From NCBI GenBank assembly GCA_035703895.1, contig DASSXJ010000248.1, positions 1 through 48,548 on the forward strand: a DNA stretch of 48,548 nt, in the 5' to 3' direction. Shown in pieces: positions 1-20,528 of the stretch. Below the pieces are notes generated by a model. It was given only the letters and a program-made list of their open reading frames with translations. It was not told where the DNA came from and searched no databases. The position numbers and the translations under genes are program-made. This stretch comes from a bacterium. GTDB lineage: Bacteria; Sysuimicrobiota; Sysuimicrobiia; Sysuimicrobiales; Segetimicrobiaceae. How positions within the stretch are numbered: position 1 is the first letter of the stretch; each line of letters opens with the position of its first letter.

Positions 1-644
1 TGGAGGATGGGACCCCGGCCGTCGAGTGCGATGTGCGCCGCACGCGAGACGGCCACCTAGTCGTCATCCACGATCCCACCGTGGACCGGACGACGGACGG
101 CGGGGGCCTCGTCGGATCACTGACTCTCGACGAACTGCGCCGGCTCGACGCGGGTCGATGGTTCGGGCCTGAGTGGGCGGGTCAGCGGCTGCCGCTGTTC
201 GACGAGGTGCTGGAGGCCGTTCGCGGGCGCGCGCTGATCAAGATCGAGATCAAGAACGATCCCGCACCCGCCGAGGGGATCGAGCGCCAGGTTGTCGATG
301 CCGTCCGGCGTCACCAGATGGAGGAGGAGGCGTTCGTGATGTCCTTCGACCATCAGGCCGTCCTTGCTGTGCGAGGCGCGGCCCCGCGGATCGCGACCGG
401 CGTCCTGTACGCTGCACGGCTCGTCGATCCGGTCTCGGCCGCGCGCGCGGCGGACGCCGACGCCCTCTGCGTCCAGTGGGGGTACCTCGATCAGGAGGTC
501 GTCGCGCGGGCCCGCCGCGCCGGGCTCGGGATCTTTACGTGGACCGTCGATGATGAGGAGATGTTTCGGCGATGCCTGGACCTCGGCGTCGACGGCGTGA
601 CCTCGAACGACACGCGCCTTATCGCACGGATGGCGCGCGGGTGA
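1..644 (+). CDS. ugpQ: Glycerophosphodiester phosphodiesterase, 5'-truncated by window edge
   Basis: This enzyme of the GDPD TIM-barrel family hydrolyses glycerophosphodiesters to sn-glycerol-3-phosphate and an alcohol. The reading frame is open to the window edge (first full codon at position 3), so the start codon and the N-terminal HRG motif lie outside. The visible part begins with the family's metal-binding stretch (VECDV) followed by HDPTVDRTT, then the EIKN strand and the C-terminal FTWTVDD and GVDGVTSND motifs. About 214 residues of a usual 240-250 are present. The stop shares one base with the next gene's ATG (TGATG), so it is probably translationally coupled to the permease genes. 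Proximity to UgpA/E/B-like genes supports the name, and the family assignment is firm. Confidence 0.9.
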   Translation, partial: EDGTPAVECDVRRTRDGHLVVIHDPTVDRTTDGGGLVGSLTLDELRRLDAGRWFGPEWAGQRLPLFDEVLEAVRGRALIKIEIKNDPAPAEGIERQVVDAVRRHQMEEEAFVMSFDHQAVLAVRGAAPRIATGVLYAARLVDPVSAARAADADALCVQWGYLDQEVVARARRAGLGIFTWTVDDEEMFRRCLDLGVDGVTSNDTRLIARMARG

Positions 645-2493: not shown

Positions 2494-2567
2494 GCAGGGG
2501 AGCGGCCCCGCACCACAAAAGGGGATCTGTGGGGTCGGTGGCCTCACATCATAGGGAGGGGTGGCAG

Positions 2568-3932
2568 ATGCCACGGAAGCGCATTACCAGACGTTCGTTC
2601 TTCAGGGCCGCAGGCGCAACGGCGCTCGGGATGGCCGGGGCGGGGCTGGCGCCCGCGCTGGTCAGGGCCCAGGCTCCGACCAGGATCGTGTTCTGGCACG
2701 CGATGGGTGGGAACCTCGGAGAGACGGTGGTCAAGGCGTTCGTCAACACCTTTAACAGCGCGCACAAAGACATCCAGGTCGAAGCGCAGTTCCAGGGGTC
2801 CTACGATGACCTCGTCAACAAGCTCCGGGCGTCCATTCAATCGCCGTCGGTGCCCGCGGTGGCGCAGGTGTACGATATCGGGACGCGGTTCATGATCGAC
2901 AGCAAGGGGATCGTCCCGGTGCAGGAGTTCATCGATAAAGAGAAGTTCGACCTCACGCAGCTGGAGCCGAATATCCTCGCCTATTATCGGGTGGGGGACC
3001 GATTAAACTCGATGCCGTTCAACACGTCGACCGCCATCCTCTACTACAACAAGGACATGTACAAGAAGGCCGGGCTCAACCCCAATCAACCGCCGCGAAC
3101 CTTTGAGGAGATCGAAGACTACGCGAAGAAGCTGGTCCAAAGCGGGGCCACCACCTCCGGGATCACCATCTCCATCTACGGATGGTTCTTCGAGCAGTTG
3201 CTGGCGCGGCAGGGCGCACTCTACGCCAACAACGGCAACGGCCGGGACAAGGCCGCGACCGAGGTCATCTACAACCAGGAGGAGGAAGGCGCCCGAATCC
3301 TGGACTGGTGGGTCCGTATGGTGAAGGCGGGGGTCGCGTCCAACCCGGGCCGCGCGTCCGTCGGGAACCCCGCAGCCCAGCGGGCGCTGGCCGGAGGGCA
3401 GACGGCGATGATCTTCGAGTCGACCGCGACGCTCCGGAGCCTGCTGACGAATGCCGGCGGCCGGTTCGAGCTCGGCACGGGGTACTTCCCCAAGCCTCCG
3501 GCGGCCAAGAACGGCGGCAGTATCGTCGGCGGGGCCTCCGTCTGGATCCTGAAGAACCGGCCCCAGGTCGAGCAGCAGGCCGCGTGGGAGTTTGTGAAGT
3601 TCATCACGGCGCCCCCGCAGCAGGCGGCGTGGTACGTCGGGACCGGCTACTTCCCCATCCGGAAAGAAGCGTACCGGGAGCAGATCGCCAAGGACAACCT
3701 CGCCAAGAATCCACAGTTCTTGACCGCGATCAGCGAGCTGCGGAACAGCCCGATCAACCGCCCGACGCAGGGCGCGCTGCTCGGCGTCTTCCCGGAAGCC
3801 AGGGCCAGGGTCGAGGAAGCCATCGAGGCCGCGGTCCTCGGCCGCAGAACCACGAAGCAGGCGCTCGACGATGCCGCAAGAAACGTGGATCAGGCGATCG
3901 CCGTCTACAACCGCACGATGGGCGTCGCCTAG
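2568..3932 (+). CDS. ugpB: Extracellular solute-binding protein, UgpB-like, Tat-exported
   Basis: This 454-residue binding protein captures substrate outside the membrane for the two permeases just upstream. The N-terminus carries a twin-arginine signal (R8-R9 in RRSFF, then a hydrophobic Ala/Gly stretch and cleavage near VRAQA), so export in folded form is predicted. The mature start IVFWHAMGG and the later segments QVYDIGT, PFNTSTAILYYNKD and KAGLNPNQPP closely resemble Escherichia coli UgpB, which binds glycerol-3-phosphate and glycerophosphocholine. The ATG at 2568 is preceded by GGGAGGGG at good spacing; the same frame is open further upstream but only within the permease gene. Substrate identity is inferred from family resemblance and the linked phosphodiesterase. 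Confidence 0.88.
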   Translation: MPRKRITRRSFFRAAGATALGMAGAGLAPALVRAQAPTRIVFWHAMGGNLGETVVKAFVNTFNSAHKDIQVEAQFQGSYDDLVNKLRASIQSPSVPAVAQVYDIGTRFMIDSKGIVPVQEFIDKEKFDLTQLEPNILAYYRVGDRLNSMPFNTSTAILYYNKDMYKKAGLNPNQPPRTFEEIEDYAKKLVQSGATTSGITISIYGWFFEQLLARQGALYANNGNGRDKAATEVIYNQEEEGARILDWWVRMVKAGVASNPGRASVGNPAAQRALAGGQTAMIFESTATLRSLLTNAGGRFELGTGYFPKPPAAKNGGSIVGGASVWILKNRPQVEQQAAWEFVKFITAPPQQAAWYVGTGYFPIRKEAYREQIAKDNLAKNPQFLTAISELRNSPINRPTQGALLGVFPEARARVEEAIEAAVLGRRTTKQALDDAARNVDQAIAVYNRTMGVA

Positions 3933-6335: not shown

Positions 6336-6344
6336 TGGGATCGC

Positions 6345-6964: not shown

Positions 6965-8773
6965 TTAGGGGCGAAGCTCGACGTCGCGCGCCGAAATGTG
7001 TATCCCGTTCAGGCCGGATTGCGCCTGGAGCGCGTGCGGCGGCCCCTGCCACGCGTGGGGCGCCTCAAACGGGCTACCCGGCATTTTGTAGAGCAGCACG
7101 CCGCCCGCACGAATGGGCTCCGCATCGATCGCCGCAAACACCTGCGGCCAGGTGCCCGAGGCCCCCTCCGCGACGATGATCGTCCGGACATGGTGCGCGC
7201 GGAGAAACGCCCCGAGCTCCCGCTGGTCATCGGCCGTAAACCGCCGAGCATAAAACCCCTTCACCACGGGCCAGCGCTTGAATTCCTCGGGGATGATGGG
7301 GCCGAGGTATCCCTCCGCCATGCGAAAATACATCCCGGTCTGCGCCTGCCACAGCATGCTGTTGCCGACCGGACCGTAGGGGATGACGAGGGTATTCTCC
7401 CCGGGAGCGATGTACTGGGCATACAACCCCTGGGTGAACAGCGCCGGGGTGTCGAGGTTGGACTTCCAAACGGCCAGCCCAAGGTTCGGCACGAGGAAGA
7501 GCACGGCGAGCGGGACGAGCGTCCATACCGCCCACCGGGGCGTCTCCTCGGCACGCGCCCAGACAGCGGTCACGACGGCGGCCACGAGGAATGCGTATAC
7601 CATGGCGCGGCCGGGGATCGCGTGATTGATGAGCGGCAATGGCGTCAGGAGGGCCCACGGCAGCGAGAGCAGCAGCCGGCCCCCGAGGCGCAGCTCCGGC
7701 CCCAGCGTTGCTACGCAGATGACGCCGAAGATGATGACCAGCAGCTTGCCGGCAGGCGTCTTCCACCGCCGGACCGCGCACCAGCAGAGGATGACCAGGA
7801 GCGGCGCACCCAGATAGGCGGTGCGTTCGTCATAACGCTGCGCAGGGATTTGGGTTCCGGTGATCGCCTCGTACCAATGCTGCCCGATGTACGTGATGGG
7901 CGTGGGAATGAGAAAGTTTTCCGGCGGGGACGAGAAGCGCGTCGGCGGATAGAGGGGTGTCGCCGGGAAGCCTTGGGCGAAGACGTAGTAGAGGTATGGG
8001 CTGAGCACCATCGCGGCCAGGGCGTACGCGCAGACGATCTGCGCCGCGGTGGCCCGAAGCCGCCTCCGTGATGCGGGCGGCACGACCGCGAGCGCGACCA
8101 GCACGGCGATGCCGCCGAACAGGGTCAACGTGGCCAGGATCTCGGTGGAGAACGAGAACTGCGCAGTGAGCGCCAGCGCCAGCAGCAGCGTGAAGGCGCG
8201 GGGCGTCAATCGCTCATCGAGGCGCAGGAGCACGAGTGCGACGCACACCGGGATCAGAAAGATCAGGATGAGGTTCAGGTGTCCCAACATGTGGCCGAGC
8301 TCATAGGTGGAGAATCCGAAGAGATACCCGCCGATGAGCGACGGCCAGAACGCCTTGGTCACGTACCGGCACAGCATGAACGCGCTTGTGGCCGCGAGGG
8401 CCGGAGCCACCAGGACCAGGAGGTTGTACGCGACGACCGGTCCGGCGGTCATCGTGATCGGAGACGCCAGCAGGCTCGCGCCCGGGACGCTGGTCACCCA
8501 GGCCAGATTGGCCCCGCTCGGCGCCCAGACGACCTTCGGAAGAAACGGGTTGAGCCCGTGCCCGAGCGCGTGGGGCCACCAGACCAGATGCCACATGAAC
8601 AGCGATGGATCGTGGGGGTTCCCGGTCGCCCCGCCAATATACGAGCGAGAGAGATTGCCCAAGACCGGCAGCCCAAAGAAGACGATCGACACGGCTGTGT
8701 AGGCGGCGAGCGCGGCCAGGGCGTGAACCGTGAGATCGCGCGGGACGCGCGGCGCGGGCCAACCGTGCATCAT
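6965..8773 (-). CDS. Polytopic membrane protein, GT-C glycosyltransferase-like
   Basis: This 602-residue protein has roughly eleven or twelve hydrophobic segments in the first 430 residues and a soluble C-terminal domain of about 150 residues. The first extracytoplasmic loop contains NPHDPSLFMWH, an acidic-residue loop in the position used by GT-C enzymes for lipid-linked sugar donors. The topology and the C-terminal VIPYGPVGN region match uncharacterised membrane glycosyltransferase-like proteins. It is the last gene of the minus-strand run, 13 bases after nanE, with start ATG at 8773 (or 8770). Its place behind amino-sugar genes suggests a role with an envelope glycan, but donor and acceptor are unknown. 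Confidence 0.65.
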   Translation of the reverse strand: MMHGWPAPRVPRDLTVHALAALAAYTAVSIVFFGLPVLGNLSRSYIGGATGNPHDPSLFMWHLVWWPHALGHGLNPFLPKVVWAPSGANLAWVTSVPGASLLASPITMTAGPVVAYNLLVLVAPALAATSAFMLCRYVTKAFWPSLIGGYLFGFSTYELGHMLGHLNLILIFLIPVCVALVLLRLDERLTPRAFTLLLALALTAQFSFSTEILATLTLFGGIAVLVALAVVPPASRRRLRATAAQIVCAYALAAMVLSPYLYYVFAQGFPATPLYPPTRFSSPPENFLIPTPITYIGQHWYEAITGTQIPAQRYDERTAYLGAPLLVILCWCAVRRWKTPAGKLLVIIFGVICVATLGPELRLGGRLLLSLPWALLTPLPLINHAIPGRAMVYAFLVAAVVTAVWARAEETPRWAVWTLVPLAVLFLVPNLGLAVWKSNLDTPALFTQGLYAQYIAPGENTLVIPYGPVGNSMLWQAQTGMYFRMAEGYLGPIIPEEFKRWPVVKGFYARRFTADDQRELGAFLRAHHVRTIIVAEGASGTWPQVFAAIDAEPIRAGGVLLYKMPGSPFEAPHAWQGPPHALQAQSGLNGIHISARDVELRP

Positions 8774-8786
8774 CGTCGCCGGCCTG

Positions 8787-9491
8787 TCACGTCGATCGGG
8801 CCGAGGGGCGGGCGTCCCCGATGGCGCGAACGAATCCCTCGGTGATCGCCTCCGGCATCGTGATCGCCCGTCCGACGACGACCGCCCACGCGCCCGCGCG
8901 GATCGCCCGCGCGGCTTCCTCGGGTGTGCGAATCCGGCCCTCGGCCACGACGGGGATTGAGACGCGGCGGGCGAGCGTGCTCACCAGGTCGAGGTCCGGC
9001 CCGTCCATCTTCGGGCTGTAGGGAGTGTAGCCCGACATCGTCGTCGCCACGAGATCCGCGCCCGCCTCCGCCGCGTCGACCCCCTCTTGCAGCGTCGAGA
9101 CGTCCGCCATCACGAGCACCCGGCATTCGCCCTGCAGGCGGGCGATCACCTCCTCGAGCCGATCTGGGGTCGAGGCGCGGTCCTGGGTCGCTTGGACCGC
9201 CACGATCTCCGCGCCGGCCTGGGCGACCGCCCGGCCGGCTTCGAACGTCGGCGTGATGTAGACCGGCGACGGTCCGCGGATCTTGTAGATCCCGATGATC
9301 GGGATCGTGACGCTCCTCCGGACGGCGGCGATATCGCCCGGGCTGTCGACCCGCACCGCGCCCGCCCCCCCGCGCTCCGCGCACTGCGCGAGCGCGGCGA
9401 TCATCTTAGGGTCCCGGAGCGGGCTGCCCTCGAGGGCCTGGCATGACACGATCAGCCGGCCGCGCAGGCGGGCCACTACGGTGTGTGTCAC
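8787..9491 (-). CDS. nanE: N-acetylmannosamine-6-phosphate 2-epimerase
   Basis: NanE interconverts ManNAc-6-phosphate and GlcNAc-6-phosphate in the cytoplasm. The 234-residue TIM-barrel protein shows the family signatures LIVSCQALEGSPL near the N-terminus, IGIYK with the catalytic lysine K70, MADVSTLQEG, TTMSGYTPYS and VVAEGRI with the catalytic glutamate. The length is normal. The GTG start at 9491 overlaps the stop of the upstream sugar kinase gene by four bases (GTGA), so kinase and epimerase are translationally coupled. That pairing suggests the kinase may supply ManNAc-6-P. No sialate lyase (nanA) is in the window. Confidence 0.93.
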   Translation of the reverse strand: MTHTVVARLRGRLIVSCQALEGSPLRDPKMIAALAQCAERGGAGAVRVDSPGDIAAVRRSVTIPIIGIYKIRGPSPVYITPTFEAGRAVAQAGAEIVAVQATQDRASTPDRLEEVIARLQGECRVLVMADVSTLQEGVDAAEAGADLVATTMSGYTPYSPKMDGPDLDLVSTLARRVSIPVVAEGRIRTPEEAARAIRAGAWAVVVGRAITMPEAITEGFVRAIGDARPSARST

Positions 9492-10477
9492 GTTCCGCTG
9501 CGCAGTTCCCAGGTCGCGGCGAGGAGCGCCAGCCGCTCGGGCGTATGGAGAACGCCGGCCGCCGCCAGCGCGAGCAGCAACGCGCCGACGACCGGGACGA
9601 ACCGCGGGGGAACGAGGACGGCGCCGGGAACGCGGGCGGTGAGGGCCGATTTCAGCGGATCGAGGATGACCCGTCCCGCTCTGAAGACGCCGCCGACCGG
9701 GGCGAGCGGCACGGTGCTATCGGGCCAAGTGAGCTGCCTCATCACGGCGGCGGCGACACCCGCGAGCCCCCGCGCGGCGTCCTCCACGAGCGCGACCGCC
9801 ACCGCATCCCCGGCGGCGGCCGCATCGGTGACCGCCGGGGCGAGCGCGGCGATGGCCGGACGTGACACGAGACCCTGGTAATAGAGAAGCGGGATCTCTC
9901 CGAGGCTCTTCCCGAAACGGGTGGGGATCTGGGTCTCGAGCACGGTGGGGCGATCCGTGCCGTCGCGGGCGCGCAGCGCCGCGCGGACGCCGGCCAAGCC
10001 GAGCGCGAACCCGCTTCCTTCGTCGCCGAAGAGGTATCCCCATCCGCCGACCCGCGCTTCCCGGCCCGAAGGATCGCGGCCATAGGCCACAGAGCCGGTC
10101 CCCGCGATGACGATCACCCCCGGCCGGCACGCGAGCGCGCCGGCGAGTGCCGCCGACGCGTCGTTGTCGATCTGCATGATCCTGGTGGTGAGCAGACCCG
10201 AGACCGCGCGCTCGAACAGGCGCGCCTGTTCGGTGTTGCGGTTGATCCCCGTCATTCCGAAGTAGGCCGAGTCGAACTCCACGCGGTGGAGTCCCGCAGA
10301 GGCCTCCGCAGCGCCCAGCGCCGTTTCCACCGCGGTCCGGGCGCGCTCCTCACCTCCCGGTGCCAAGATGTGATTGCTGGGGCCCCCATCACCGGCGCCG
10401 AGGATGCGACCGTCGGCGTCACAGATCGCGCAGGCCGTGCTTGTCGCGCCCCCATCGACACCGAGGAAATACGCCAT
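9488..10477 (-). CDS. BadF/BcrA-family amino-sugar kinase (GlcNAc/MurNAc/ManNAc kinase-like)
   Basis: This 329-residue ASKHA-fold kinase of the BadF/BadG/BcrA/BcrD ATPase family most likely phosphorylates a free N-acetyl amino sugar. Visible motifs are the phosphate-1 loop FLGVDGGATST (residues 4-14), GDGGPSNH, the DNDASAALAGA catalytic-Asp region, the phosphate-2 loop IAGTGSVAYG, and GWGYLFGDEGSG. In clostridia a kinase of this family (MurK) phosphorylates both MurNAc and GlcNAc, which fits the surrounding MurQ, AnmK and NagA. Four-base coupling to nanE makes ManNAc an alternative substrate. The ATG at 10477 has no clear Shine-Dalgarno sequence. The upstream glycosyltransferase gene ends 54 bases away. 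Confidence 0.85.
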   Translation of the reverse strand: MAYFLGVDGGATSTACAICDADGRILGAGDGGPSNHILAPGGEERARTAVETALGAAEASAGLHRVEFDSAYFGMTGINRNTEQARLFERAVSGLLTTRIMQIDNDASAALAGALACRPGVIVIAGTGSVAYGRDPSGREARVGGWGYLFGDEGSGFALGLAGVRAALRARDGTDRPTVLETQIPTRFGKSLGEIPLLYYQGLVSRPAIAALAPAVTDAAAAGDAVAVALVEDAARGLAGVAAAVMRQLTWPDSTVPLAPVGGVFRAGRVILDPLKSALTARVPGAVLVPPRFVPVVGALLLALAAAGVLHTPERLALLAATWELRSGT

Positions 10478-10531
10478 TGGCGGAAGGGGGGTTCGCGGAT
10501 GGCCGCAGCCGGTCCTCCCAGTATCGTCCGG

Positions 10532-12148
10532 TCATACACATCGATGCGCCGGCGCGGCCGGCTTCACCAGCACACGGACGTCGGTGCGCTCCGCGAACGG
10601 CGCAAGCGTTCGGGGCAGCGTCTTCCCCATCGCGGCCGCGTTAGCCGAGTTGAGCACCACGAAGACGCGGCCGGGCGCGCACACGAAGGCCCGGAGGTCC
10701 TGCGGCCTCGCCGCCCGCTCGACGCGGTGCCCGGTGTAGAAGATCAACGATTGGGGCACGTCCGAGCCGAAGGCGATGATGCGATCATCCGGACGGAGGG
10801 CGCGCTTTATGGCCAGCGCCAAGGGTTTCATAGGCTTGCGCGCCTCCACGGCGGGGACCGCCCACGTTAGCACGCCGATCCAGATGACCGCCATGGTTGC
10901 GGCGAGCGCCACGAAGGTTCCGAACGCGCGCCCCCTCGCCGCCAGCGCCAGGGCCGTCCCGATGCCCACCGCGATCGCAGCGGCCGGCAGGCGCAGCGCA
11001 TCGGCGTGCGCGCGATACGCCTCGGGGTACCTGCTGCGGAGATACCAAGCGACCGCCGTGAACAGCATCCCCATGAGGACCACGAGCAGACCGAGCGGGA
11101 CCCCGATCGTTCGATCGATCCGCCTTCGCTCAATCGCGTGGACCCACAACGTCGCGACGCCGATCGCCGCGAACGGATAGACGGGCAGGATGTAGTTCGG
11201 CAGTCTCGTGGCGGCCGCGGTGTAGAAGAGGAACGTCCCCCCACACGCCAGCAGGACCAACAGGCTCCCGTCGTCCGCGCGGGCTCGGCGAAGGTGCCAG
11301 GCCGCGGCCGCGGGCCAGAACACGCTCCACGGGAATCCGCCGAAGCCGAGGGTGGGTACGTACAGCCACCACGGATTGGCCTGATTCTCCACGATCCCGA
11401 AGAACCGGCCAAACGTGTAGTAACCGAGCGCGGAGGCGGCAAACGGCCGGCCGTGCAGGATGGTTTCCACGGCGTACCAGGACAGCCCCACCATCGTGTA
11501 GAGGGCGAGTCCGGCGGTCCACGGCACCTCGCGCCACCGAGCCCAGGCCCCGCGCAGGGTGACGAACGCGGCGATGATGAGCCCCGGAAGGACGATGCCG
11601 ACGAGCCCCTTGGTCAGCGTGGCCAGGCCGGCGAAGAGGAAGAAGCGGATGTAGTCGCCGGTAGATCCGCGGCGGTAGCCTTGGTAGAACGCGTAGACGG
11701 CGAGCAGCATCCACGCGACGAGCACGGTGTCGAACACCGCCAGGCGAGACTGAATAAGGTACTGGAGCGTGACGGCGAGGATGGCCGCGGCGACGAGCCC
11801 CGTCCGTTCCCCGAAGAATGCGCGCCCGAGCAGGAACGTGGCATACACCGCGATGAGGCTCGCGAGCGCCGACCAGAGCCGCACGCTGAACTCGGTGAAC
11901 CCCAGGACGCGGCCGGTGGCGGCGACGAGCCACATGTAGAGCGGGGGGTGAACGTACCAGGGTTCGCCGTTCGAGTGCAGGGTGATGGGATCGCCCGTCT
12001 GGACAATTTCAGCGGCGATCTCCGCGTACCGCGTTTCGTCCTGGTCCCACAGCGACCCGGCCCCCAGCCGGTAGAGGTTGAGGAACGCGGCGAGGGCGAG
12101 GACCGCGAGCAGCCCCCAGCGTCCCGCGCTCCCGCCGGCCCGGCTCAA
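10532..12148 (-). CDS. GT39/ArnT-like membrane glycosyltransferase (paralogue A)
   Basis: This 538-residue polytopic protein resembles ArnT/PMT-type (GT39/GT83, GT-C) transferases that move a sugar from a polyprenyl-phosphate donor onto an envelope acceptor. The first periplasmic loop has the key acidic motif WDQDETRYAEIA, followed by WYVHPPLYMW; about eleven hydrophobic segments and a small C-terminal soluble domain (IAFGSDVPQSLIFYTGHRV) follow. I chose TTG at 12148 because it overlaps the upstream stop by four bases (TTGA) and gives almost the same length and N-terminus as its paralogue at 45516-47138; the frame stays open upstream but there runs through the hydrolase gene. It lies inside the muropeptide salvage run. 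Confidence 0.82.
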   Translation of the reverse strand: MSRAGGSAGRWGLLAVLALAAFLNLYRLGAGSLWDQDETRYAEIAAEIVQTGDPITLHSNGEPWYVHPPLYMWLVAATGRVLGFTEFSVRLWSALASLIAVYATFLLGRAFFGERTGLVAAAILAVTLQYLIQSRLAVFDTVLVAWMLLAVYAFYQGYRRGSTGDYIRFFLFAGLATLTKGLVGIVLPGLIIAAFVTLRGAWARWREVPWTAGLALYTMVGLSWYAVETILHGRPFAASALGYYTFGRFFGIVENQANPWWLYVPTLGFGGFPWSVFWPAAAAWHLRRARADDGSLLVLLACGGTFLFYTAAATRLPNYILPVYPFAAIGVATLWVHAIERRRIDRTIGVPLGLLVVLMGMLFTAVAWYLRSRYPEAYRAHADALRLPAAAIAVGIGTALALAARGRAFGTFVALAATMAVIWIGVLTWAVPAVEARKPMKPLALAIKRALRPDDRIIAFGSDVPQSLIFYTGHRVERAARPQDLRAFVCAPGRVFVVLNSANAAAMGKTLPRTLAPFAERTDVRVLVKPAAPAHRCV

Positions 12149-13239
12149 AGCAGAGCGCGCGCGATCGCGCCCGCGAGTTGCGGGCGGAGCGTCAGGATCT
12201 CGGTCCGGTCTCGTCCGAGGTGGATGGCATTCGTGAGCAGGACGATCGCGAGGTCGTGCTCCGGATCGATCGCGGCGGACGTGCCCGTGAACCCAGTGTG
12301 TCCAAAGGCGCTTGGCGAGAGCGACTCCCCCCACCATCCTTGGGGCCCGGTCAACGCCCATCCCAGCCCCCGCGTGTAGTCCGGGGGCTGGCCGCGGGCG
12401 GCCGTCCGGACGAGATCCGCCGGCAGCACGTCGCCGCGATCCGTCCGCCCGCGGCGGAGCCACGTGCCTGCGTACACGATCAGATCGTCGGCCGTGCCGA
12501 ACAGGCCGGCATGCCCGGAGACGTCCCCCATCGCATGCGCGTTGCTGTCGTGCGCCTCGCCCCAGATGAGGTATCGCCGCCACGTGTGTCTGTGACCGGC
12601 CTCACCGGCCATCGCCTGCTCGGTTCCGGTGCCGTCCTCGGTCGGCGCGATGCGGTCGCGCAGACGGGGGTCGGGGCGATAGGTGGTGTCGTGCATCGCG
12701 AGGGGATCGAAGATTCTGGTCTTGGCGAGCACGTCGAGTGGCGCTCCGAGCGTGCGCCGCGCCACCTCGCCGAGCAGGATGAACCCCACATCGCTGTAGA
12801 CCACCTGCGTGCCCGGCGCCGCCGTGGCCGGCGTGGAGGCCGCGCGCGCGACGACCGCCTCGTATCCTGAGACCTCGAGATAGAAGGGAATCCACGCCGG
12901 CAGCCCGCCGGTGTGGGAGAGCAGGTGCCTGAGGGTGATGCCCGGGGCTCGGAGCTCCGGGAGATGGGTGGTCACCGGATCGTCGAGCCGAAGGCGCCCC
13001 TCGGCCGCGGCCATGAGAACGAGCGGCGTCGTCGCGACGACCTTGGTGAGGGAGGCGAGGTCGTAGATGGTCTCGGGGGTGGCCGGCTGCCGGTCCGGGA
13101 CGAGAGAGCGAAAGCCGACCGCCCACCGGATGACGATCTCGCCACCGCGGCACACTTCGAGAACGGCACCCGGATAGGCGCGGCCGACTCCGGACTCGAG
13201 CAGATCGCGTACCGGGGCGAGCGCGCGGGCGCCGTTCAC
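12145..13239 (-). CDS. Serine hydrolase of the beta-lactamase fold, AmiE-like candidate
   Basis: This 364-residue serine hydrolase has the penicillin-binding/class C fold: S63-L-T-K66 (nucleophile and general base), Y148-S-D150, and HTGFTG replacing the KTG motif. No signal peptide is present, so it should be cytoplasmic. In Bacillus subtilis the muropeptide rescue operon carries AmiE, a member of this fold that cuts MurNAc from L-Ala. With MurQ and AnmK immediately upstream and a peptide importer in the same run, an AmiE-like N-acetylmuramoyl-L-alanine amidase is the best guess; a D,D-peptidase or esterase remains possible. The GTG at 13239 overlaps the anmK stop by four bases; the longer frame from 13275 would overlap anmK by 40 bases. 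Confidence 0.82.
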   Translation of the reverse strand: MNGARALAPVRDLLESGVGRAYPGAVLEVCRGGEIVIRWAVGFRSLVPDRQPATPETIYDLASLTKVVATTPLVLMAAAEGRLRLDDPVTTHLPELRAPGITLRHLLSHTGGLPAWIPFYLEVSGYEAVVARAASTPATAAPGTQVVYSDVGFILLGEVARRTLGAPLDVLAKTRIFDPLAMHDTTYRPDPRLRDRIAPTEDGTGTEQAMAGEAGHRHTWRRYLIWGEAHDSNAHAMGDVSGHAGLFGTADDLIVYAGTWLRRGRTDRGDVLPADLVRTAARGQPPDYTRGLGWALTGPQGWWGESLSPSAFGHTGFTGTSAAIDPEHDLAIVLLTNAIHLGRDRTEILTLRPQLAGAIARALL

Positions 13240-14450
13240 TTGGTTGACTCCCGGCTGGCCGCGCCCGGGGGCCACGTGAACTTGCCGAGGATGCGGCCGT
13301 GGCGCGCACCGGTGACCCGGGGGAGGTTCCCCGAACGGCCCATCAGGCTCGCGTGTCCAATGAGCGCAAACGCGAGGGCCTCCTTGGCGTCGGAGGGAAT
13401 GCCGAACTCGTCGATCGCCCGGACGCGAAGGGGGGTCACCGCGTCTGCGAGGCGCCGGATCAACGTGGGGTTGTGCACGCCTCCCCCGGAGGCGACGATC
13501 TCCTCGATCGCATGGCGCGGTAGCACAAACCGGGAGACGTTGGACGCGATCGCCTCCGCCGCAAATGCGGTTGCGGTGGCGATCAAGTCGTCGGCGGGAA
13601 GGGTTCCCCAGGCGGCGAGGAGGTCGTGGAGAAACGGGCGGCCGAATTGTTCGTGCCCCGCCGCCTTGGGCGGCGACGCGGTGACGAAGGGATGGCGCAT
13701 GAGCGCAGCGAGGAGGTCCTCGCGCACCCGGCCGCGCGCGGCGCGGCTGCCGTCTCGATCGTACGCCTCGCCAAAGAAGTGGCGGACGAGGCCATCGCTC
13801 ACCATGTTGGCCGGGCCGCAGTCAAAGGCGTAGACATCTTCGAACGTTGCGCCCGCCGGGAGGACGGTGAGGTTGGAGATCCCGCCGAGGTTCAGCGCGA
13901 TCCGGCCGGTCCGATTGCCGAGCAGCAGTAGGTCTGCGTAAGGGACGAAGGGCGCACCGACGCCCCCGGCCGCCATATCGGCGGGGCGGAAGTCGGCGAT
14001 GACCGGCCGGCCCGTCCGCTCCGCGATCACCGCCGCCTCCCCCAGTTGCATCGTCGCGGCGCGGCTGAACGAGTCGGCAGGATCGGGCGTGCCCACATGC
14101 GCGACGGTTTGTCCGTGCGAGGCGATGAGGTCCACCGTCTCGAGATCGCATCCGCCGGCGCGGGCCGCCGCGATCGCGGCGTCGGCGAAGAGCTCCCCCA
14201 AGAGGAAGTTGAGCGTGGCCGCGTCCTGCATCGTGGCGGGTTCGGTAAAGAGGTTGATCACGCGGCGCCGCACCTCGGGCGGGTACGGCGTCGTGGCCCA
14301 CCCGCGCAGGGCGATCCCCGGTCGCTCGCGCCCGCGGTCGGTGATCTCGACGAGGGCTCCCGTGATGCCGTCGGCGGAGGTGCCCGAGATGAGCCCGATC
14401 ACCAACGTGACGGGCTTGGCCCGGATGCGGGCGAAGGGGTCGACGCTCAT
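13236..14450 (-). CDS. anmK: Anhydro-N-acetylmuramic acid kinase
   Basis: AnmK opens the 1,6-anhydro ring of anhydro-MurNAc and phosphorylates it to MurNAc-6-phosphate, the substrate of MurQ encoded just upstream. The 404-residue protein has the ATP-binding start GLISGTSADG (residues 19-28; the family usually has Leu in place of this Ala), ASHGQTVAH, GRPVIADFRPADMAAGG, NLGGISNLT, FDCGPANM and SGGGVHNPTL. It is slightly longer than average because of short extra ends. The ATG at 14450 lies seven bases after murQ, and the stop overlaps the next gene by four bases. Function is firm; the product shows that anhydro-muropeptides are part of the diet or recycling stream. Confidence 0.94.
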   Translation of the reverse strand: MSVDPFARIRAKPVTLVIGLISGTSADGITGALVEITDRGRERPGIALRGWATTPYPPEVRRRVINLFTEPATMQDAATLNFLLGELFADAAIAAARAGGCDLETVDLIASHGQTVAHVGTPDPADSFSRAATMQLGEAAVIAERTGRPVIADFRPADMAAGGVGAPFVPYADLLLLGNRTGRIALNLGGISNLTVLPAGATFEDVYAFDCGPANMVSDGLVRHFFGEAYDRDGSRAARGRVREDLLAALMRHPFVTASPPKAAGHEQFGRPFLHDLLAAWGTLPADDLIATATAFAAEAIASNVSRFVLPRHAIEEIVASGGGVHNPTLIRRLADAVTPLRVRAIDEFGIPSDAKEALAFALIGHASLMGRSGNLPRVTGARHGRILGKFTWPPGAASRESTK

Positions 14451-14457
14451 CGCGGCA

Positions 14458-15357
14458 TCACGAGGACGCGCTCAGCGCCCGCCGGACGTTTCCTCCGGCG
14501 CGGGCCAGCCGTCCCGCCGCGTCCTCCGCGGTCGTGCGCGCGGCAATCATCACGATGGCCACCGGCACGCGGCCCCCGGCGCGGCCGAGCGCTTCGGCCG
14601 CCTCCCGCTCCGGCACCCCCGCGGCGGTCGCCACGATGCGCACGGCCCTGCGGCGCAGTTTCTCGTTCGTGGCGCGAAGATCCACCATCAGGTTCCCGTA
14701 CACTTTCCCCAACTGCACCATGGTCAAGGTGCTGAGCATGTTCAGCACGAGTTTTTGCGCGGTGCCCGCTTTGAGCCGGGTGCTCCCGGCGATCACCTCA
14801 GGGCCCACCACGGGGACGATGGCCAGATCGCACGCCGAGACGAGCGGGGAGCCGGCGACGCACGTCACCGCGATCGTGAACGCGCGCCGCGCTCGAGCGC
14901 GCCGCACCGCGGCCAGCACGAAGGGTGTCGCTCCGCTCGCCGCGATTCCCACGACCACATCGTCGGGGCCGATGCCGCGCGAGTCGACCTCCCGCTCGCC
15001 GGCGCGCTCATCGTCCTCGGCGCCCTCAACCGCCTCGGTCAGCGATCGCGGGGCCCCCGCGAGCACGGCTTGGACCTGACGGGGATCGGTCCCAAAGGTC
15101 GGCGGGCACTCCGCGGCATCGAGGACCGCGAGCCGGCCGCTCGTCCCAGCGCCGATGTACACGAGACGTCCCCCGCGGCGGAGCGCGTCCGAAATCCGGG
15201 CGACGGCATCGGCGATCTGCGGAATCACGGTGCCCACGGCGGTCGGGACCCGACGGTCCTCCTCGTTGATCAGCCGGGCCTGCTCGAGCAGCGGCCGGAG
15301 GTCGAGGTCCCGGGTGTGCGTATTGATCGCTTCCGTCGGGGGCTCGCGTTCGGGCAT
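14458..15357 (-). CDS. murQ: N-acetylmuramic acid 6-phosphate etherase
   Basis: MurQ removes the D-lactyl ether of MurNAc-6-phosphate to give GlcNAc-6-phosphate and D-lactate. The 299-residue SIS-fold protein has the family hallmarks TEAINTHTRDLD near the N-terminus, IGAGTSGRLAVLDAAECPPTFG with catalytic E83, VEGAEDDE, and GIAASGATPFV. The start has one of the best ribosome binding sites in the window (AAAGGAGGAACC before the ATG at 15357). It is ten bases behind the DppC-like permease and seven before anmK, so it lies in the middle of the import-salvage operon. Confidence 0.95.
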   Translation of the reverse strand: MPEREPPTEAINTHTRDLDLRPLLEQARLINEEDRRVPTAVGTVIPQIADAVARISDALRRGGRLVYIGAGTSGRLAVLDAAECPPTFGTDPRQVQAVLAGAPRSLTEAVEGAEDDERAGEREVDSRGIGPDDVVVGIAASGATPFVLAAVRRARARRAFTIAVTCVAGSPLVSACDLAIVPVVGPEVIAGSTRLKAGTAQKLVLNMLSTLTMVQLGKVYGNLMVDLRATNEKLRRRAVRIVATAAGVPEREAAEALGRAGGRVPVAIVMIAARTTAEDAAGRLARAGGNVRRALSASS

Positions 15358-15367
15358 GGTTCCTCCT

Positions 15368-16228
15368 TTATATTCGCAGGCGCGGGTCGAGCAGGTCGCG
15401 CAATCCGTCCCCGAGGAGGTTGAACCCCAGCACGATCATGGCGATCGTCGCTCCGGGAAAGACGGCGGTCCACGGGGCGGTGGCCATGAACCGGCGGGAG
15501 TCCGCCAGCATGTTTCCCCACGAGGGGGTGGGCGGTTGCGTTCCCAACCCGAGGAAGCTCAGCGCCGATTCGGTGAGAATCGCGAGCGAGAGGCTGAGCG
15601 AGGTCTGCACGATCAGGGGGGCCGAGATGTTCGGCAGGATGTGGCGGAGGAGAACGCGGCGCGTCCTCGCGCCGAGCGCCCCGGCCGCCTCCACGTACTC
15701 TAACGTGCGCGTGGCCAGCACGCTGGCCCGGCTGATCCGGGCGAACTGCGGGGTGTAAACGACGCCGATCGCGACGATGACGGTCCAGACCGCGGTCCCA
15801 GCGGCCGCCATGATGGCGATCGCGAGTAGCACGGCCGGGAACGCGAAAATGACGTCCATCACCCGCATCAGGGTGCCGTCGATGCGGCCGCCGTAGTGGC
15901 CGCTCACGACTCCCACGCTTCCTCCCGCCGCGAGTGCCAAGACCACCGAGGCGATCGAGACGACGAGCGACACCCGCGTCCCATACAGTAGCCGGCTCAG
16001 CAGGTCCCGGCCAAACTGATCAGTTCCGAACGGGTAGGGTCCGCCCGGGGGCGCCAGCAGCGATTGCGAGGCCATGGAAAGAGGGTCGTGCGGGGCCAGT
16101 GCCGGCGCCGTGACGGCCGCGAAGAGGTAGGCGCCGACGATCACCGCGCCGGCCACCGCCACCGGGGTGCGGACGAACCGGGACGCGAAGGTCCGCCGCG
16201 GCCGCACCGCCGCCACCGGTCGGTTCAC
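15368..16228 (-). CDS. dppC: Peptide-type ABC transporter permease, DppC-like
   Basis: This 286-residue inner-membrane permease belongs to the dipeptide/oligopeptide (DppC/OppC) family. An N-terminal hydrophobic segment (about residues 21-42) precedes APHDPL and FGTDQFGRDLLSRLLYGTR, the typical DppC entry to the core domain. Five further hydrophobic segments follow, and the EAA-type loop (EAAGALGARTRRVLLRHILPN) is clear. The GTG at 16228 overlaps the stop of the DppB-like gene by four bases; the same frame is open further upstream but only opposite dppB. Given murQ immediately downstream, the likely cargo is muropeptides or cell-wall peptides. No ATPase genes (DppD/DppF) are nearby. Confidence 0.9.
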   Translation of the reverse strand: MNRPVAAVRPRRTFASRFVRTPVAVAGAVIVGAYLFAAVTAPALAPHDPLSMASQSLLAPPGGPYPFGTDQFGRDLLSRLLYGTRVSLVVSIASVVLALAAGGSVGVVSGHYGGRIDGTLMRVMDVIFAFPAVLLAIAIMAAAGTAVWTVIVAIGVVYTPQFARISRASVLATRTLEYVEAAGALGARTRRVLLRHILPNISAPLIVQTSLSLSLAILTESALSFLGLGTQPPTPSWGNMLADSRRFMATAPWTAVFPGATIAMIVLGFNLLGDGLRDLLDPRLRI

Positions 16229-17178
16229 CCGTACCGCACCCTTGGGTCGACGTAGGCGTACAGGACATCGACGACGATGTTGCTCAGGACAAACAAGAGG
16301 GCGATGACGAGGACCACGCCCTGCACGACCGGGTAATCCCGCTGAGCGATGGCGTTGAGCGCCAGACGGCCCATGCCCGGGAGCGCAAAGACGTCTTCGA
16401 TGACGACCGTCCCGCCGAGCAGATAGCCGGCCTGGAAACCGATCACCGTGATCACCGGAATCAACGCGTTGCGCAGCGCGTGCCGGTTGATGACCCACCG
16501 CTCCCGGAGCCCTTTGGCGCGCGCCGTGCGAACGTAGTCCTGTCCGAGGACCTCGAGGAGTGAGGAACGCACGAACCGCATGATCACCGCGGCCAGCACG
16601 ACGCCGAGGGAGAACGCCGGCAGCACCATCACCGTCAGATTGGCGATGGGATTCGTGAAAAACCGGACGTAGATCCCGATCGACGCGATCGGGAGGATGC
16701 GTCCGGGCAGGAAGAGCAGCAGCATCGTGGCGAGCCAAAAGTTGGGGATGCTGAGGCCGATGAGGCCGCCCACCCGGATCGCCGCGTCGGAGGCCGTTCC
16801 CCGCCGGAGCGCGGAGAGCACGCCCACGGGGAGCGCGATCGCCAGGGAGACGAGGAGGGCGAGGACGGTGAGCTCGGCGCTCACCGGGAGCCGGGCGAGG
16901 ATGTCGGGGAGCACCGGACGGCTGGTGCGGAGCGAGACCCCCAAATCTCCCCGCACCAGCTGGCCGATCCAGTCGATGTACTGGAGCGGCAACGGCTTGT
17001 TGAGGCCAAACAGCCGCCGCAACTCTTCCATCTGCGCGGACGTCAGGGCCACCTGGGTCCCCAGAAACATCTGCAGGGCGTCTCCTGGGATCAGGTGAAT
17101 CAGCAGAAATACCACGATCGAGACGCCCCACAGGACGGGGAGCATGGTGAGCAGCCTGGTCGCGATAAATCCGGTCAC
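16225..17178 (-). CDS. dppB: Peptide-type ABC transporter permease, DppB-like
   Basis: This 317-residue partner permease has the family start (first hydrophobic segment at residues 9-30, then HLIPGDA), the LGLNKPLP-like loop GLNKPLPLQY, RGDLGVSLRT, and the cytoplasmic RTARAKGLRERWVINRHALRNALIP loop that contacts the ATPase. The C-terminus DPRVRYG is characteristic of DppB/OppB proteins. The GTG start at 17178 lies 43 bases after the binding-protein gene, without a strong Shine-Dalgarno sequence. Coupling to the DppC-like gene is by a four-base overlap. Confidence 0.9.
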   Translation of the reverse strand: MTGFIATRLLTMLPVLWGVSIVVFLLIHLIPGDALQMFLGTQVALTSAQMEELRRLFGLNKPLPLQYIDWIGQLVRGDLGVSLRTSRPVLPDILARLPVSAELTVLALLVSLAIALPVGVLSALRRGTASDAAIRVGGLIGLSIPNFWLATMLLLFLPGRILPIASIGIYVRFFTNPIANLTVMVLPAFSLGVVLAAVIMRFVRSSLLEVLGQDYVRTARAKGLRERWVINRHALRNALIPVITVIGFQAGYLLGGTVVIEDVFALPGMGRLALNAIAQRDYPVVQGVVLVIALLFVLSNIVVDVLYAYVDPRVRYG

Positions 17179-17221
17179 GCGGCCGGCCGGACCGGGGGCG
17201 ATGCCCCGGTCCGGCGGTGGA

Positions 17222-18763
17222 TCATCGCTCGATCGCGGTCTGTTCGATGTAGTTGAGTGCTCCGGTCGGGATCAGGCGGAACCCCTTGACGTACGACTGC
17301 AGCACCTCGGTGTTGTAGGGAGTATATAGGAAGACGGCGGGCGCTTTTTGGACGAGCGCCTTCTGCAGTTCGTCGTAGATCGGTTTCCGCTCCGTCGCCA
17401 CGACGTGCACGCGGCCGCGGTCGAGCAGCCGGTCGATCGCAGAGTCCTTGAAGAGGAAGTTGTTCACGGCCCCCGTGCTGTAGAACGTCCGGTACAGGAA
17501 CCGGTCGGGATCGGGATCGCCGCCGCGGAGTTCCACCATCGTGTCAAAGTCTCGCTTGACCCATCGGTTGATGTACGTGCCCCATTCGATGTTCTCGATC
17601 GCGGGGGCGAGCCCGACGGCGCGCAGCTGATTCTGGATCACCTCGGCCACGGCCAGTCCCCCCTCGTAGGTGGGGGAGGCGACGATCTTGAACGCGGCGC
17701 CGGCGGCGCCCGCGTCCTGAAGGAGCTGCCGCGCTCTCGCCGGGTTGGGATGGTACTCGGGGAACGCCGCGACCGGCAGCGCCCAGGTCTTGGCAGGGGC
17801 CGGCACGGGTCCACTGATCTCCCCCAGCCCGAACTCCGCCGCCTTGACGATGGCGTCGCGATCGATGGCGAAGGCGATCGCATCCCTGACGCGCGCGTCG
17901 GTGAACGGCGCTCGGGTCGTGTTGAATGAGAAGATCCGAAGATTGAGGCTGGGCGCCTGCAGCACGACCAGGGCTTTATCGGCCTGCGCCTGCTTCGAGA
18001 CGCTGCCGTCCGAAATCGACGCCATATCGAGGCTCCGCGTCCGGACGCCCGCGAGGAGCGAGGCCTGTTCGGGGATGATGCGATACACGACCTCGTCCAC
18101 CTTGGGGAGCCCGCGCTTGAAGTACGCGGGGTTGCGGGCCAAGCGCATAAAGTTGTCGGGCACCCACTCCGCCAACGTGAACGGGCCGGTTCCGGCCTCG
18201 GTCTTCTGGAGGTCGCCCGTCGAAGACCGGAGGACGGCCGCTTTCTCGACGACTGCCGCGTTGCCGGAGGCCAGTCCCGAGAGGATGGAGGCGAGGGGGT
18301 ACTTGAGGTGCACGCGCACCGTGTACCGGTCCGCCGCCGTCACCGCATCCACAGCGTCGATGTACGACCGGCCGGGCGACGCGGTCTTCGGATCGAGGAT
18401 GCGTTCGATCGTGAAGGCCACGTCCTCGGACGTCATCTCCTGGCCGTCGTGGAAGCGCACGCCTTTGCGAAGATGGAAGACGTACGTCCGAGCATCCGGC
18501 GTGTCCCAGGACTCCGCGAGGTCGCCGACGACATGCAGATCGGCGTCATAGGTGACCAGCTTGTTGTACAAGAGGTCGATCCGCCGGAACGAAGAGAACG
18601 CGGTGACTTTGTTGGGGTCGAGACCCACGACCTCCTGATCGACACCCACCGTGAGGGTGACTTTGGTGGGGGCCGCCTGCGTGCCGGGTACCGCGGATGC
18701 GGCCGCAAGGCCCGCGACCACCAGCAGGGTCATCACGAGCGCGAGACTACGGATCGCGTGCAT
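17222..18763 (-). CDS. dppA: Peptide-type ABC transporter substrate-binding protein, DppA/OppA family
   Basis: This 513-residue extracytoplasmic binding protein of the SBP_bac_5 family has a Sec signal peptide (residues 1 to about 31, ending near GTQAA) with no lipobox cysteine. It then shows the domain landmarks LDPNKV, DLAESWD, YVFHLRKGVRFHDGQ, TSEDVAFTIERI and RDAIAFAIDRDAI. The start is ATG at 18763, placed six bases after GGAGG; the preceding TTG would be too close to that site. The ATG shares one base with the stop of the upstream acetyltransferase gene. Related proteins bind peptides, murein tripeptide or sugars; the murQ/anmK neighbourhood favours muropeptides, which is inference. Confidence 0.9.
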   Translation of the reverse strand: MHAIRSLALVMTLLVVAGLAAASAVPGTQAAPTKVTLTVGVDQEVVGLDPNKVTAFSSFRRIDLLYNKLVTYDADLHVVGDLAESWDTPDARTYVFHLRKGVRFHDGQEMTSEDVAFTIERILDPKTASPGRSYIDAVDAVTAADRYTVRVHLKYPLASILSGLASGNAAVVEKAAVLRSSTGDLQKTEAGTGPFTLAEWVPDNFMRLARNPAYFKRGLPKVDEVVYRIIPEQASLLAGVRTRSLDMASISDGSVSKQAQADKALVVLQAPSLNLRIFSFNTTRAPFTDARVRDAIAFAIDRDAIVKAAEFGLGEISGPVPAPAKTWALPVAAFPEYHPNPARARQLLQDAGAAGAAFKIVASPTYEGGLAVAEVIQNQLRAVGLAPAIENIEWGTYINRWVKRDFDTMVELRGGDPDPDRFLYRTFYSTGAVNNFLFKDSAIDRLLDRGRVHVVATERKPIYDELQKALVQKAPAVFLYTPYNTEVLQSYVKGFRLIPTGALNYIEQTAIER

Positions 18764-19254
18764 CAAACACCTCCCTGTGATTCATCCTGGATCGGGCCGA
18801 GGGTCTTGCGGTACACGACTTCGGTGATCCCACGTCGCAGATAGTCTTCGACCTCGCCGATGCGCCGGTACCCCCGGCGTTCGTAGAACCGGCGCGCGCC
18901 GGTATTCCAGGTGGACACGAGCAGAAAGACGTTCGGCCCGTGGCCGAGGATCGCCGCTTCTGCGGCGTCCATCAACCGAGCCCCCACGCCCCGGTGTTGC
19001 GCACCCGGCGCCACGGCGACCGACCGCACGTATCCGCTGTGGACGAACGTCCCCCTGACCGTGTAGACGACGAACCCCACGATCCGCCCGTCCTCCTCCG
19101 CCACGAGCCCCAGCGTCGTGCCCGCGACCACGTCCGCGAACGCCGCGCGCGCCGCGTCGATGCTGGTGATCCCGTATCGCGTCCACAGCGGGACGGCCAG
19201 CATGATCGAGGCGCAGGCGACCACGTCGGCGTCTCGCATCGGGCGGATCGTCAC
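18763..19254 (-). CDS. GNAT-family N-acetyltransferase
   Basis: This acetyl-CoA-dependent N-acetyltransferase has 163 residues. The N-terminus reads VTIRPMRDADV, a usual GNAT start, and the acetyl-CoA binding motif A is clear (VRSVAVAPGAQHRGVGARLMD), followed by NTGARRFYERRGYR near the C-terminus. I placed the start at GTG 19254 because it begins exactly at the domain; an in-frame start at 19317 would add 21 residues with no domain homology. It is the first gene of the minus-strand salvage run and its stop shares a base with the dppA-like ATG. The substrate could be an amino sugar or a cell-wall peptide amine, but this is not shown. Confidence 0.8.
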   Translation of the reverse strand: MTIRPMRDADVVACASIMLAVPLWTRYGITSIDAARAAFADVVAGTTLGLVAEEDGRIVGFVVYTVRGTFVHSGYVRSVAVAPGAQHRGVGARLMDAAEAAILGHGPNVFLLVSTWNTGARRFYERRGYRRIGEVEDYLRRGITEVVYRKTLGPIQDESQGGV

Positions 19255-19358
19255 ATCCCAGTATTCTCCGGGCCGTGCCAGCGGGCCTCCCCCGAGCGCC
19301 GCGGCGGGTCGCCTCACAACGCAGGAAGTGGTGCCTGCGGGCCGAAAAGCACGCCTCC
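19255..19358. promoter_or_regulatory. Divergent intergenic region, acetyltransferase operon / nagA
   Basis: This 104-base gap separates the divergent salvage operon and nagA, so both promoters and any shared regulator site must lie here or just inside the flanking genes. I see no convincing -35/-10 pair and no strong palindrome, so the region is assigned by layout only. Confidence 0.4.
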
Positions 19359-20528
19359 GTGATCGTTTCCGCCGGCACCGTACTCGCCGCCGACCGCGAT
19401 TTCAGCCCGGGATACGTCGTGATCGACGCCGGCCGCATCGCGCAGATCGGGTCCGGCCCGGCTCCGTCCAGCGCGCCGGGACCAACCTTCGTGTTCCCCG
19501 ACGGGACCCTGGCTCCCGGGTTCATCGATCTCCAGGTGAATGGGGGCGCGGGAGTCGATTGTCTGCGGTGCGCCCCGCAGGCCTACGAGACCCTGGGGCG
19601 GTACCTCGCGGCGACGGGAGTGACCGCGTATCTCCCTACGATTGTGAGCGCGCCACTCGAAGAGATGCGCGGGGCGATCGACGTCGCGGCCGCGGCGGCC
19701 GAGCGGCGGGGTCCGTTTCCCGCAATCCTCGGCGTGCATGTGGAAGGCCCCTACCTGAATCCCCTGCGCCGTGGCGCGCACCGCGCGCAGGATCTCCGGC
19801 ATCCCTCGGTGGCCGAGATCACCGAGACCCACCGCCGGGCGAATGGGGCACTGCGGATGGTTACGCTGGCTCCCGAACTCGAGGGCGCAGAAGCGGTCGT
19901 CCGCTGGCTCGTGGCGGAGCGGGTCACGGTGTCCCTCGGGCACACCGACGCGGGATACGACGAGATGATGACCGCGGCCGCGTGGGGTGCCCGCATGGTC
20001 ACGCACGTCTTCAACGCGATGCGGGGGTTCCACCACCGTGAGCCCGGAGCGGCCGGAGGCGCACTCCTCGCTCCCGGGCTCACCGTGGGGGTGATCGCCG
20101 ATCTCGTACACCTGCACCCGGCGGTGCTGCACGTCGTCGCGCGTGTCGCGGGATTGAGCCGCGTGGCCCTCGTGACGGACGCCATCTCCGCGGCGGGGAT
20201 GGGACGGGGAACGTTCTCCCTGGGAAGTCAGGCCGTGGAGGTTCGAGACGGCGTCCCGCGGCTGGCAGACGGGACGTTCGCCGGCAGCGTGTTGGCGCTG
20301 ATCCGCGGCGTCCACAACTTCAGCAGGGCGGCGTCGGTGAGCTTCCGCGATGCGGTGCAGGCCGCGAGCCTCGTGCCCGCGCGCCTGCTCGGCCTCGCGC
20401 ATAAGGGACGGATTGCATCCGGCGCCGACGCCGATCTGATCGTCTTGGACAGGGAGGGAAGCCTCGTCCTGACGTTGGTGCGCGGGGAGGTCGCGTTCCG
20501 GCGGGAAGCCCCCCGTGATGCGGCTTAG
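19359..20528 (+). CDS. nagA: N-acetylglucosamine-6-phosphate deacetylase
   Basis: NagA converts GlcNAc-6-phosphate to glucosamine-6-phosphate and acetate. The 389-residue amidohydrolase has GFIDLQVNGGAGVD (the one-metal type with Gln-Asn in place of His-x-His), HVEGPYL with E129, LGHTDAG with H195, THVFNAM with H216, and the catalytic D274 in VTDAISAAG. The start is GTG 19359; the reading frame extends upstream but only into sequence without homology. It is divergent from the salvage operon whose MurQ, NanE and kinase all deliver GlcNAc-6-P, making NagA the exit step. No nagB deaminase is in the window. Its stop overlaps the convergent coiled-coil gene by four bases. Confidence 0.93.
   Translation: MIVSAGTVLAADRDFSPGYVVIDAGRIAQIGSGPAPSSAPGPTFVFPDGTLAPGFIDLQVNGGAGVDCLRCAPQAYETLGRYLAATGVTAYLPTIVSAPLEEMRGAIDVAAAAAERRGPFPAILGVHVEGPYLNPLRRGAHRAQDLRHPSVAEITETHRRANGALRMVTLAPELEGAEAVVRWLVAERVTVSLGHTDAGYDEMMTAAAWGARMVTHVFNAMRGFHHREPGAAGGALLAPGLTVGVIADLVHLHPAVLHVVARVAGLSRVALVTDAISAAGMGRGTFSLGSQAVEVRDGVPRLADGTFAGSVLALIRGVHNFSRAASVSFRDAVQAASLVPARLLGLAHKGRIASGADADLIVLDREGSLVLTLVRGEVAFRREAPRDAA

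Follow-up and report, generated by a model that had tools for sequence, protein, structure and literature searches.

A conserved dppABC-murQ-anmK-amiE island of Sysuimicrobiota is a candidate system for the import and salvage of peptidoglycan fragments

The peptide ATP-binding cassette (ABC) transporter YejBEF-YepA of Agrobacterium tumefaciens has been shown to import muropeptides (PMC9790009), and in Bacillus subtilis AmiE and NagZ work extracellularly, N-acetylmuramic acid (MurNAc) then entering via MurP of the phosphotransferase system (PTS) (PMC5061867). Escherichia coli has the murQ-murP-yfeW divergon with its regulator MurR, as well as the MppA-OppBCDF system. Here we analysed an island in a 48,548-nucleotide stretch of DNA (hereafter the window), contig C248 of a 4.38 Mb metagenome-assembled genome (MAG) that is 97% complete and belongs to Sysuimicrobiota, near Candidatus Segetimicrobium. 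In this island, genes for a DppABC-like importer lie together with murQ, anmK and amiE. We propose that it serves peptidoglycan-fragment import and salvage, with DppABC bringing in MurNAc- or anhydroMurNAc-peptides that are degraded by enzymes inside the cell, and we assign this reading a probability of roughly 0.7. The original prediction for this DNA had likewise put forward muropeptide salvage served by a peptide-type importer, and gene identities, synteny, importer exchange and missing signal peptides support it.

Conserved synteny, which that prediction had set as its own refutation test, was found. In family f1 (G001, G002, G004 to G011), dppABC-murQ-anmK-amiE is found in the same order in 10 of 10 genomes, with the kinase and nanE genes coming next wherever the contig extends, and nagA divergent where the contig covers it. 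The layout across the order is [RpiR]-[GNAT]-dppABC-amiE-[kinase]-murQ-anmK, and several sister islands have MurR/RpiR-family regulators at their head. Excluding the window, a peptide-type dppABC adjoins amiE-murQ-anmK in 24 of the 28 order loci with long enough contigs; the four negatives are G020 and three genomes of the g11 group (G018, G030 and G038). Because it is kept across the family and much of the order, the arrangement is not a product of chance. Relatives in the order have been deposited under inconsistent names, including Bacillota, Armatimonadota and Terrabacteria group bacterium ANGP1 (Candidatus Segetimicrobium genomatis in the NCBI taxonomy).

That the importer is part of the pathway is best supported by its exchange, because the enzymes stay while the transporter changes. 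In a tree of 39 DppA sequences, the island proteins fell into two clades, type I and type II, each with 100/100 support, and type II DppABC, which is non-orthologous to type I, is found in the same position in six genomes from four families. Genus g17 contains both kinds: G025 and G028 carry RpiR-GNAT-type I-amiE-murQ-anmK, and G031 carries the same RpiR and enzymes with a type II importer and without GNAT. Co-occurrence also counts in favour of the proposal: none of the order genomes of at least 85% completeness has a type I DppA without AnmK (table 21/7/0/7, Fisher p 5e-4), a statistic that ignores shared ancestry and comes from a hand-compiled table.

As an unbiased test, DppA alone was used as a query against the named genomes, yielding 34 loci (some of them identical to contigs of the genomes compared above, so that the two counts are not additive). 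Homologs with at least 53% identity all adjoin AmiE, AnmK or MurQ, except those of the g11 group (L093, L096, L097). The same search revealed dppABC-anmK in an Atribacteria MAG (L101), anmK-dppABC-amiE in a Bacillota MAG (L099), anmK-PIG-L-dppABC in a low-GC MAG (L098) and, with a DppA of 38% identity, anmK-amiE-GntR divergent from dppABC in a Kosmotogales (Thermotogota) MAG (L121). In L098 and L099, a PIG-L de-N-acetylase is present in the island in place of GNAT. Outside the order, dppABC lies beside AnmK in 1 of 16 further AnmK loci: L174 of G055, a genome from another phylum, in which NamZ, a DppA with S-layer homology domains, DppBC, NagZ, AmiE, AnmK, a double-SIS protein and NagA are clustered, along with a protein nearest Ala-Glu epimerases that falls below that model's cut-off. 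The S-layer homology domains of this DppA-like protein (L174 15643-17889) make it a possible wall-anchored muropeptide-binding protein.

MurQ is 47% identical to E. coli MurQ and keeps both catalytic residues, Glu83 and Glu114. The motifs SLTK, YSD and HTGFTGT of AmiE are invariant in 11 homologs and correspond to the SxxK, YxD/N and HTG motifs of PF00144; a PDB search with AmiE gave no match at 1e-20. AmiE is 33% identical to E. coli YfeW, which has a signal peptide, whereas none of the AmiE homologs examined has a signal-like N-terminus and the adjacent DppA proteins do have a signal peptide, in line with the cytoplasmic hydrolase that had been predicted. If AmiE is indeed cytoplasmic, MurNAc-peptides would have to enter the cell, and a peptide-type importer would be their natural carrier. 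The island kinase matches an annotated MurNAc/GlcNAc kinase (8zo3) over residues 1-304, nearly its full length, so that candidate kinases are present in the island for anhydroMurNAc as well as MurNAc. In G005, a second and divergent member of the AnmK family (about 43-45%) occurs near CUT1-type permeases (L035 9709-10926, G005:C58) and may be another anhydrosugar kinase.

A whole-genome search found neither AmpG nor a PTS EIIC protein in the window's genome, confirming that both of these entry routes are absent; among the order genomes, 3 of 43 have EIIC. Contrary to the claim of a closed route, the island does not hold the complete set: the genes for NagZ and a NagB-II-like enzyme lie on other contigs. 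The single GH3 protein of the genome reads as NagZ (KHFPGHG motif, no signal peptide), and its gene shares an operon with those for a CUT1 transporter and a DUF4127 protein (L073 6498-12589, G000:C233); NagZ is present in 35 of 43 order genomes. The operon of CUT1, DUF4127 and cytoplasmic NagZ is conserved in the family (also L158, L159, L160 and L143). In G021, a single island holds nagA, type II dppABC, amiE, kinase, murQ, anmK, nagZ, a NagB-II-like double-SIS protein and CUT1-DUF4127, which ties the window genome's salvage island and nagZ operon together. No classical NagB was recognised in the genome: a PF01182 match was rejected, as it reads as 6-phosphogluconolactonase, and the double-SIS NagB-II-like protein suits this role better. 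The genome also encodes an S66 (LdcA-type) peptidase. At L157 (G000:C219, about 5137-11500), an S66 peptidase of LdcA/MccF type lies near another dppABC, a possible second wall-peptide importer.

In the route that we infer, including the DppA ligand, the sharing of ATPases and every reaction, DppA would capture MurNAc- or anhydroMurNAc-peptides, possibly with N-acetylglucosamine (GlcNAc), outside the membrane, and DppBC would pass the fragment inward, powered by DppD/F-type ATPases encoded elsewhere. Cytoplasmic NagZ would take off GlcNAc, AmiE would cleave the lactyl-L-alanine amide in the cytoplasm, and AnmK or the MurK-like kinase would generate MurNAc-6-phosphate, from which MurQ would split off D-lactate and NagA would produce glucosamine-6-phosphate (GlcN-6-P), with NanE channelling N-acetylmannosamine-6-phosphate (ManNAc-6-P) into the same pool. 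GlcN-6-P could then enter wall synthesis, or glycolysis via the NagB-II-like enzyme.

The importer itself, an SBP_bac_5 binding protein with two Dpp/Opp-type BPD_transp_1 permeases, has the composition of a Dpp/Opp (PepT) system. Both island DppA types have Gly where E. coli DppA has Asp408, and nothing in any type I or type II sequence aligns to Arg355. In the DppA structure, Asp408 contacts the ligand's amino terminus, and Asp408 and Arg355 together hold the free termini of the dipeptide; a ligand whose L-Ala amine is in an amide bond to the lactyl group would fit a DppA lacking both residues. Chloroflexota DppA also has Gly, so this residue does not identify the ligand. An AlphaFold model of DppA (mean predicted local distance difference test score, pLDDT, of 42) was too poor for use.

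DppABC might instead take up only the freed stem peptide, of the L-Ala-D-Glu-mDap (meso-diaminopimelate) type as in MppA-Opp, with the sugars entering by another transporter such as the NagZ/DUF4127-linked CUT1. DppA is a PepT-family protein with a weak match to MppA (24%), and the CUT1-DUF4127-NagZ set is conserved across the family and in G021 forms part of the island. However, MppA and OppA of E. coli both keep an Asp at the position aligned with DppA Asp408, where the island types do not, and a cytoplasmic AmiE requires an amide substrate inside the cell; we therefore consider import of the stem peptide alone improbable. A cargo of peptide-free amino-sugar di- or oligosaccharides (GlcNAc-anhydroMurNAc or chitobiose-like), the substrate of AmiE then being a minor one, would suit NanE, the MurK-like kinase and NagA, which are sugar enzymes. 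PepT-family binding proteins for chito- and cello-oligosaccharides exist, and the closest named solved relative of DppA is AgaA (6hlx), an opine-type and not a peptide binder. Such a cargo is nonetheless very improbable in our view: no enzyme gene accompanies dppABC in the order more regularly than amiE, which turns up again in Kosmotogales and in G055, and G055 has the Ala-Glu-epimerase-like gene besides.

Import of muropeptides by DppABC remains our preferred reading, and several observations weigh against it. The window's cluster contains no DppD or DppF ATPase gene (22 oligo_HPY matches lie elsewhere in the genome). The Chloroflexota DppABC homologs (36-41%) are not beside murQ, anmK or amiE, and they share both the GNAT neighbour and the Gly at the 408 position without murQ or anmK, so that neither feature is muropeptide-specific; G018, G030 and G038 keep a type I GNAT-dppABC apart from murQ-anmK-amiE. 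Among solved structures, AnmK is nearer to levoglucosan kinase (245 bits) than to Pseudomonas aeruginosa AnmK (201 bits), and MltG (YceG), present in 8 of 14 control genomes, was not found in the window's 97% complete genome, which together make the anhydroMurNAc branch less certain than the MurNAc branch. The loci in g11 and Chloroflexota that lack adjacent recycling genes would also be expected if GNAT-dppABC were an unrelated peptide uptake or detoxification module, neighbouring the recycling genes by chance. This is the least probable of the alternatives, as the linkage extends through the order as a whole and into several phyla, and the six type II genomes have another DppABC in the same slot.

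A GNAT homolog lies upstream of type I dppABC in 16 of 16 order loci checked and in 0 of 6 type II loci. GNAT was rejected as a muropeptide-specific marker, since Chloroflexota dppABC also has it; loci with GNAT next to dppABC (type I or Chloroflexota) are the window (18763-19254), L103, L145, L146, L154, L155, L161, L093, L097, L104 and L110. We put forward one joint and speculative proposal, possible though unlikely: that ABC importers of Dpp/Opp type, not Yej type, were recruited at least twice as muropeptide importers, independently of YejBEF-YepA, in Sysuimicrobiota and beyond, and that the GNAT of type I islands re-acetylates de-N-acetylated wall sugars after import, allowing salvage of lysozyme-resistant, deacetylated peptidoglycan.

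Known entry routes had been described in the original prediction as PTS or AmpG, a list that YejBEF-YepA renders incomplete (PMC9790009). In that system and, as proposed, in the island too, a peptide-type ABC transporter that has its own binding protein stands in for AmpG and supplies muropeptides to cytoplasmic NagZ and an amidase. They differ in that the island permeases are of the Dpp/Opp/Nik type (Table 1; DppB is 39% identical to E. coli DppB and 29% to YejB), no YejF-like ATPase lies beside the island dppABC, and the island is clustered with the MurQ route, whereas the Agrobacterium route is AnmK-MupP-AmgK-MurU. DppA is 23% identical over 220 residues to YejA of E. coli, the comparator used here in place of YepA. 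The murQRP-amiE-nagZ-ybbC genes of B. subtilis offer a likeness in the pairing of murQ with amiE and in MurNAc-peptide salvage, with nagZ and NamZ (YbbC) here in other loci. Muropeptide breakdown in B. subtilis is extracellular, however, and MurNAc enters via the PTS (PMC5061867), whereas the island's genome has no PTS EIIC, its AmiE and NagZ have no recognisable signal peptides, and AnmK and the MurK-like kinase would replace PTS phosphorylation. The E. coli murQ-murP-yfeW divergon likewise has murQ beside a PF00144 hydrolase, and its MurR is paralleled by the RpiR-type regulators of sister islands; unlike the island, it has a PTS importer, a YfeW with a signal peptide and no anmK in the cluster. 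MppA-OppBCDF also uses a PepT-family binding protein for wall fragments and shares a general permease, but MppA keeps the amino-terminus-binding Asp, takes free peptide and has no clustered sugar enzymes. MurK (PDB 8zo3) matches the island kinase along its full length, which places a putative MurK in the dppABC-murQ-anmK cluster. In Clostridium acetobutylicum, murK may have opp genes in its neighbourhood. The literature searched gave no account of a dppABC-murQ-anmK cluster, a search that left most subscription-journal papers outside, and the main text of the Sysuimicrobiota phylum paper mentions neither peptidoglycan nor muramic acid.

The eleven minus-strand genes predicted at 6965-20528 are all present with correct coordinates, as is the divergent nagA, and the family names given for GNAT, DppABC, MurQ, AnmK, the PF00144 hydrolase, GT39, the kinase, NanE and NagA match ours (Table 1). 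The scores of MurQ, AnmK, NanE and NagA exceed the curated cut-offs of NCBIfam. Spacings are mostly 1-13 bases or overlaps, as reported, with two exceptions of 43 and 54. In transcription order they are about -4 (GNAT/dppA), +43 (dppA-dppB), -4 (dppB/dppC), +10 (dppC-murQ), +7 (murQ-anmK), -4 (anmK/amiE, counted from GTG 13239, the better-supported start; -40 for the longest open reading frame, ORF), -4 (amiE/GT39, if the start is TTG 12148), +54 (GT39-kinase), -4 (kinase/nanE) and +13 (nanE-602-aa gene). DppA probably starts at ATG 18763, behind AGGGAGG, and NagA probably at GTG 19359 and not at 19275. No prominent promoter-like site was found at the island.

The two membrane glycosyltransferases that had been counted as members of the system are lineage-specific passengers: no other island compared has GT39, and the 602-aa protein recurs in a single congener (G002, 67%), so both were rejected as pathway parts. 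The GT39-type gene, with its 4-base overlap, sits in the amiE-kinase junction in this genome only, apparently a recent insertion into the operon. Nor is DppABC the only importer candidate, as had been stated, since a UgpB-type CUT1 system flanks the island and another CUT1 is linked to NagZ. We rejected the flanking system as importer for the island: the nearest match to its binding protein is UgpB, which makes a glycerophosphate-type substrate more likely, and this transporter is probably a separate system. The gene that follows this CUT1 system (the two together span window 572-4942) is in place throughout family f1 at 63-73% identity; it has no Pfam match and appears PHP-like by eye.

Table 1. 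Genes of the island and its flank, in window coordinates.
Feature	Coordinates	Strand	Evidence and remarks
GNAT N-acetyltransferase	18763..19254	-	PF00583 64 bits; start chosen GTG 19254; directly upstream of type I dppABC
DppA-like binding protein, signal peptide	17222..18766	-	SBP_bac_5 PF00496 294 bits; type I clade
DppB-like permease	16225..17178	-	BPD_transp_1; Opp2B 331 bits vs YejB 136 bits
DppC-like permease	15368..16228	-	BPD_transp_1; Opp4C 283 bits
MurQ, MurNAc-6-phosphate etherase	14458..15357	-	TIGR00274 351 bits, cut-off 302
AnmK, anhydro-MurNAc kinase	13236..14450	-	NF007148 440 bits, cut-off 387
AmiE/YfeW-type serine hydrolase	12145..13239	-	PF00144 214 bits; longest ORF from 13275; no signal peptide
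GT39/PMT-type membrane glycosyltransferase	10532..12148	-	PMT_2 76 bits
MurK-like BadF-family kinase	9488..10477	-	best solved relative 8zo3, 140 bits
NanE, ManNAc-6-phosphate 2-epimerase	8787..9491	-	NF002231 252.9 bits, cut-off 189
602-aa multi-pass membrane protein	6965..8773	-	no Pfam match; GT-C was the original prediction's guess
NagA, GlcNAc-6-phosphate deacetylase, divergent	19359..20528	+	TIGR00221 278.7 bits, cut-off 225.65
Flanking CUT1 ABC transporter, UgpB-like binding protein	572..3932	+	kept beside island across family f1

A peptide-type ABC importer of muropeptides is already known; the one proposed here differs from it in the type of permease and in the arrangement. The conserved block suggests another, independently evolved way of wall-fragment re-uptake. 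For wall-fragment uptake without AmpG or a MurNAc PTS, the island, kept in place while its importer comes in two interchangeable types, supplies named candidate proteins from a soil-dwelling phylum for which metagenomes are the main source of knowledge. If the proposal is true, peptide-type ABC importers would have been recruited for muropeptides more than once, and murQ-anmK-amiE islands could guide the search for importers elsewhere among the phyla.

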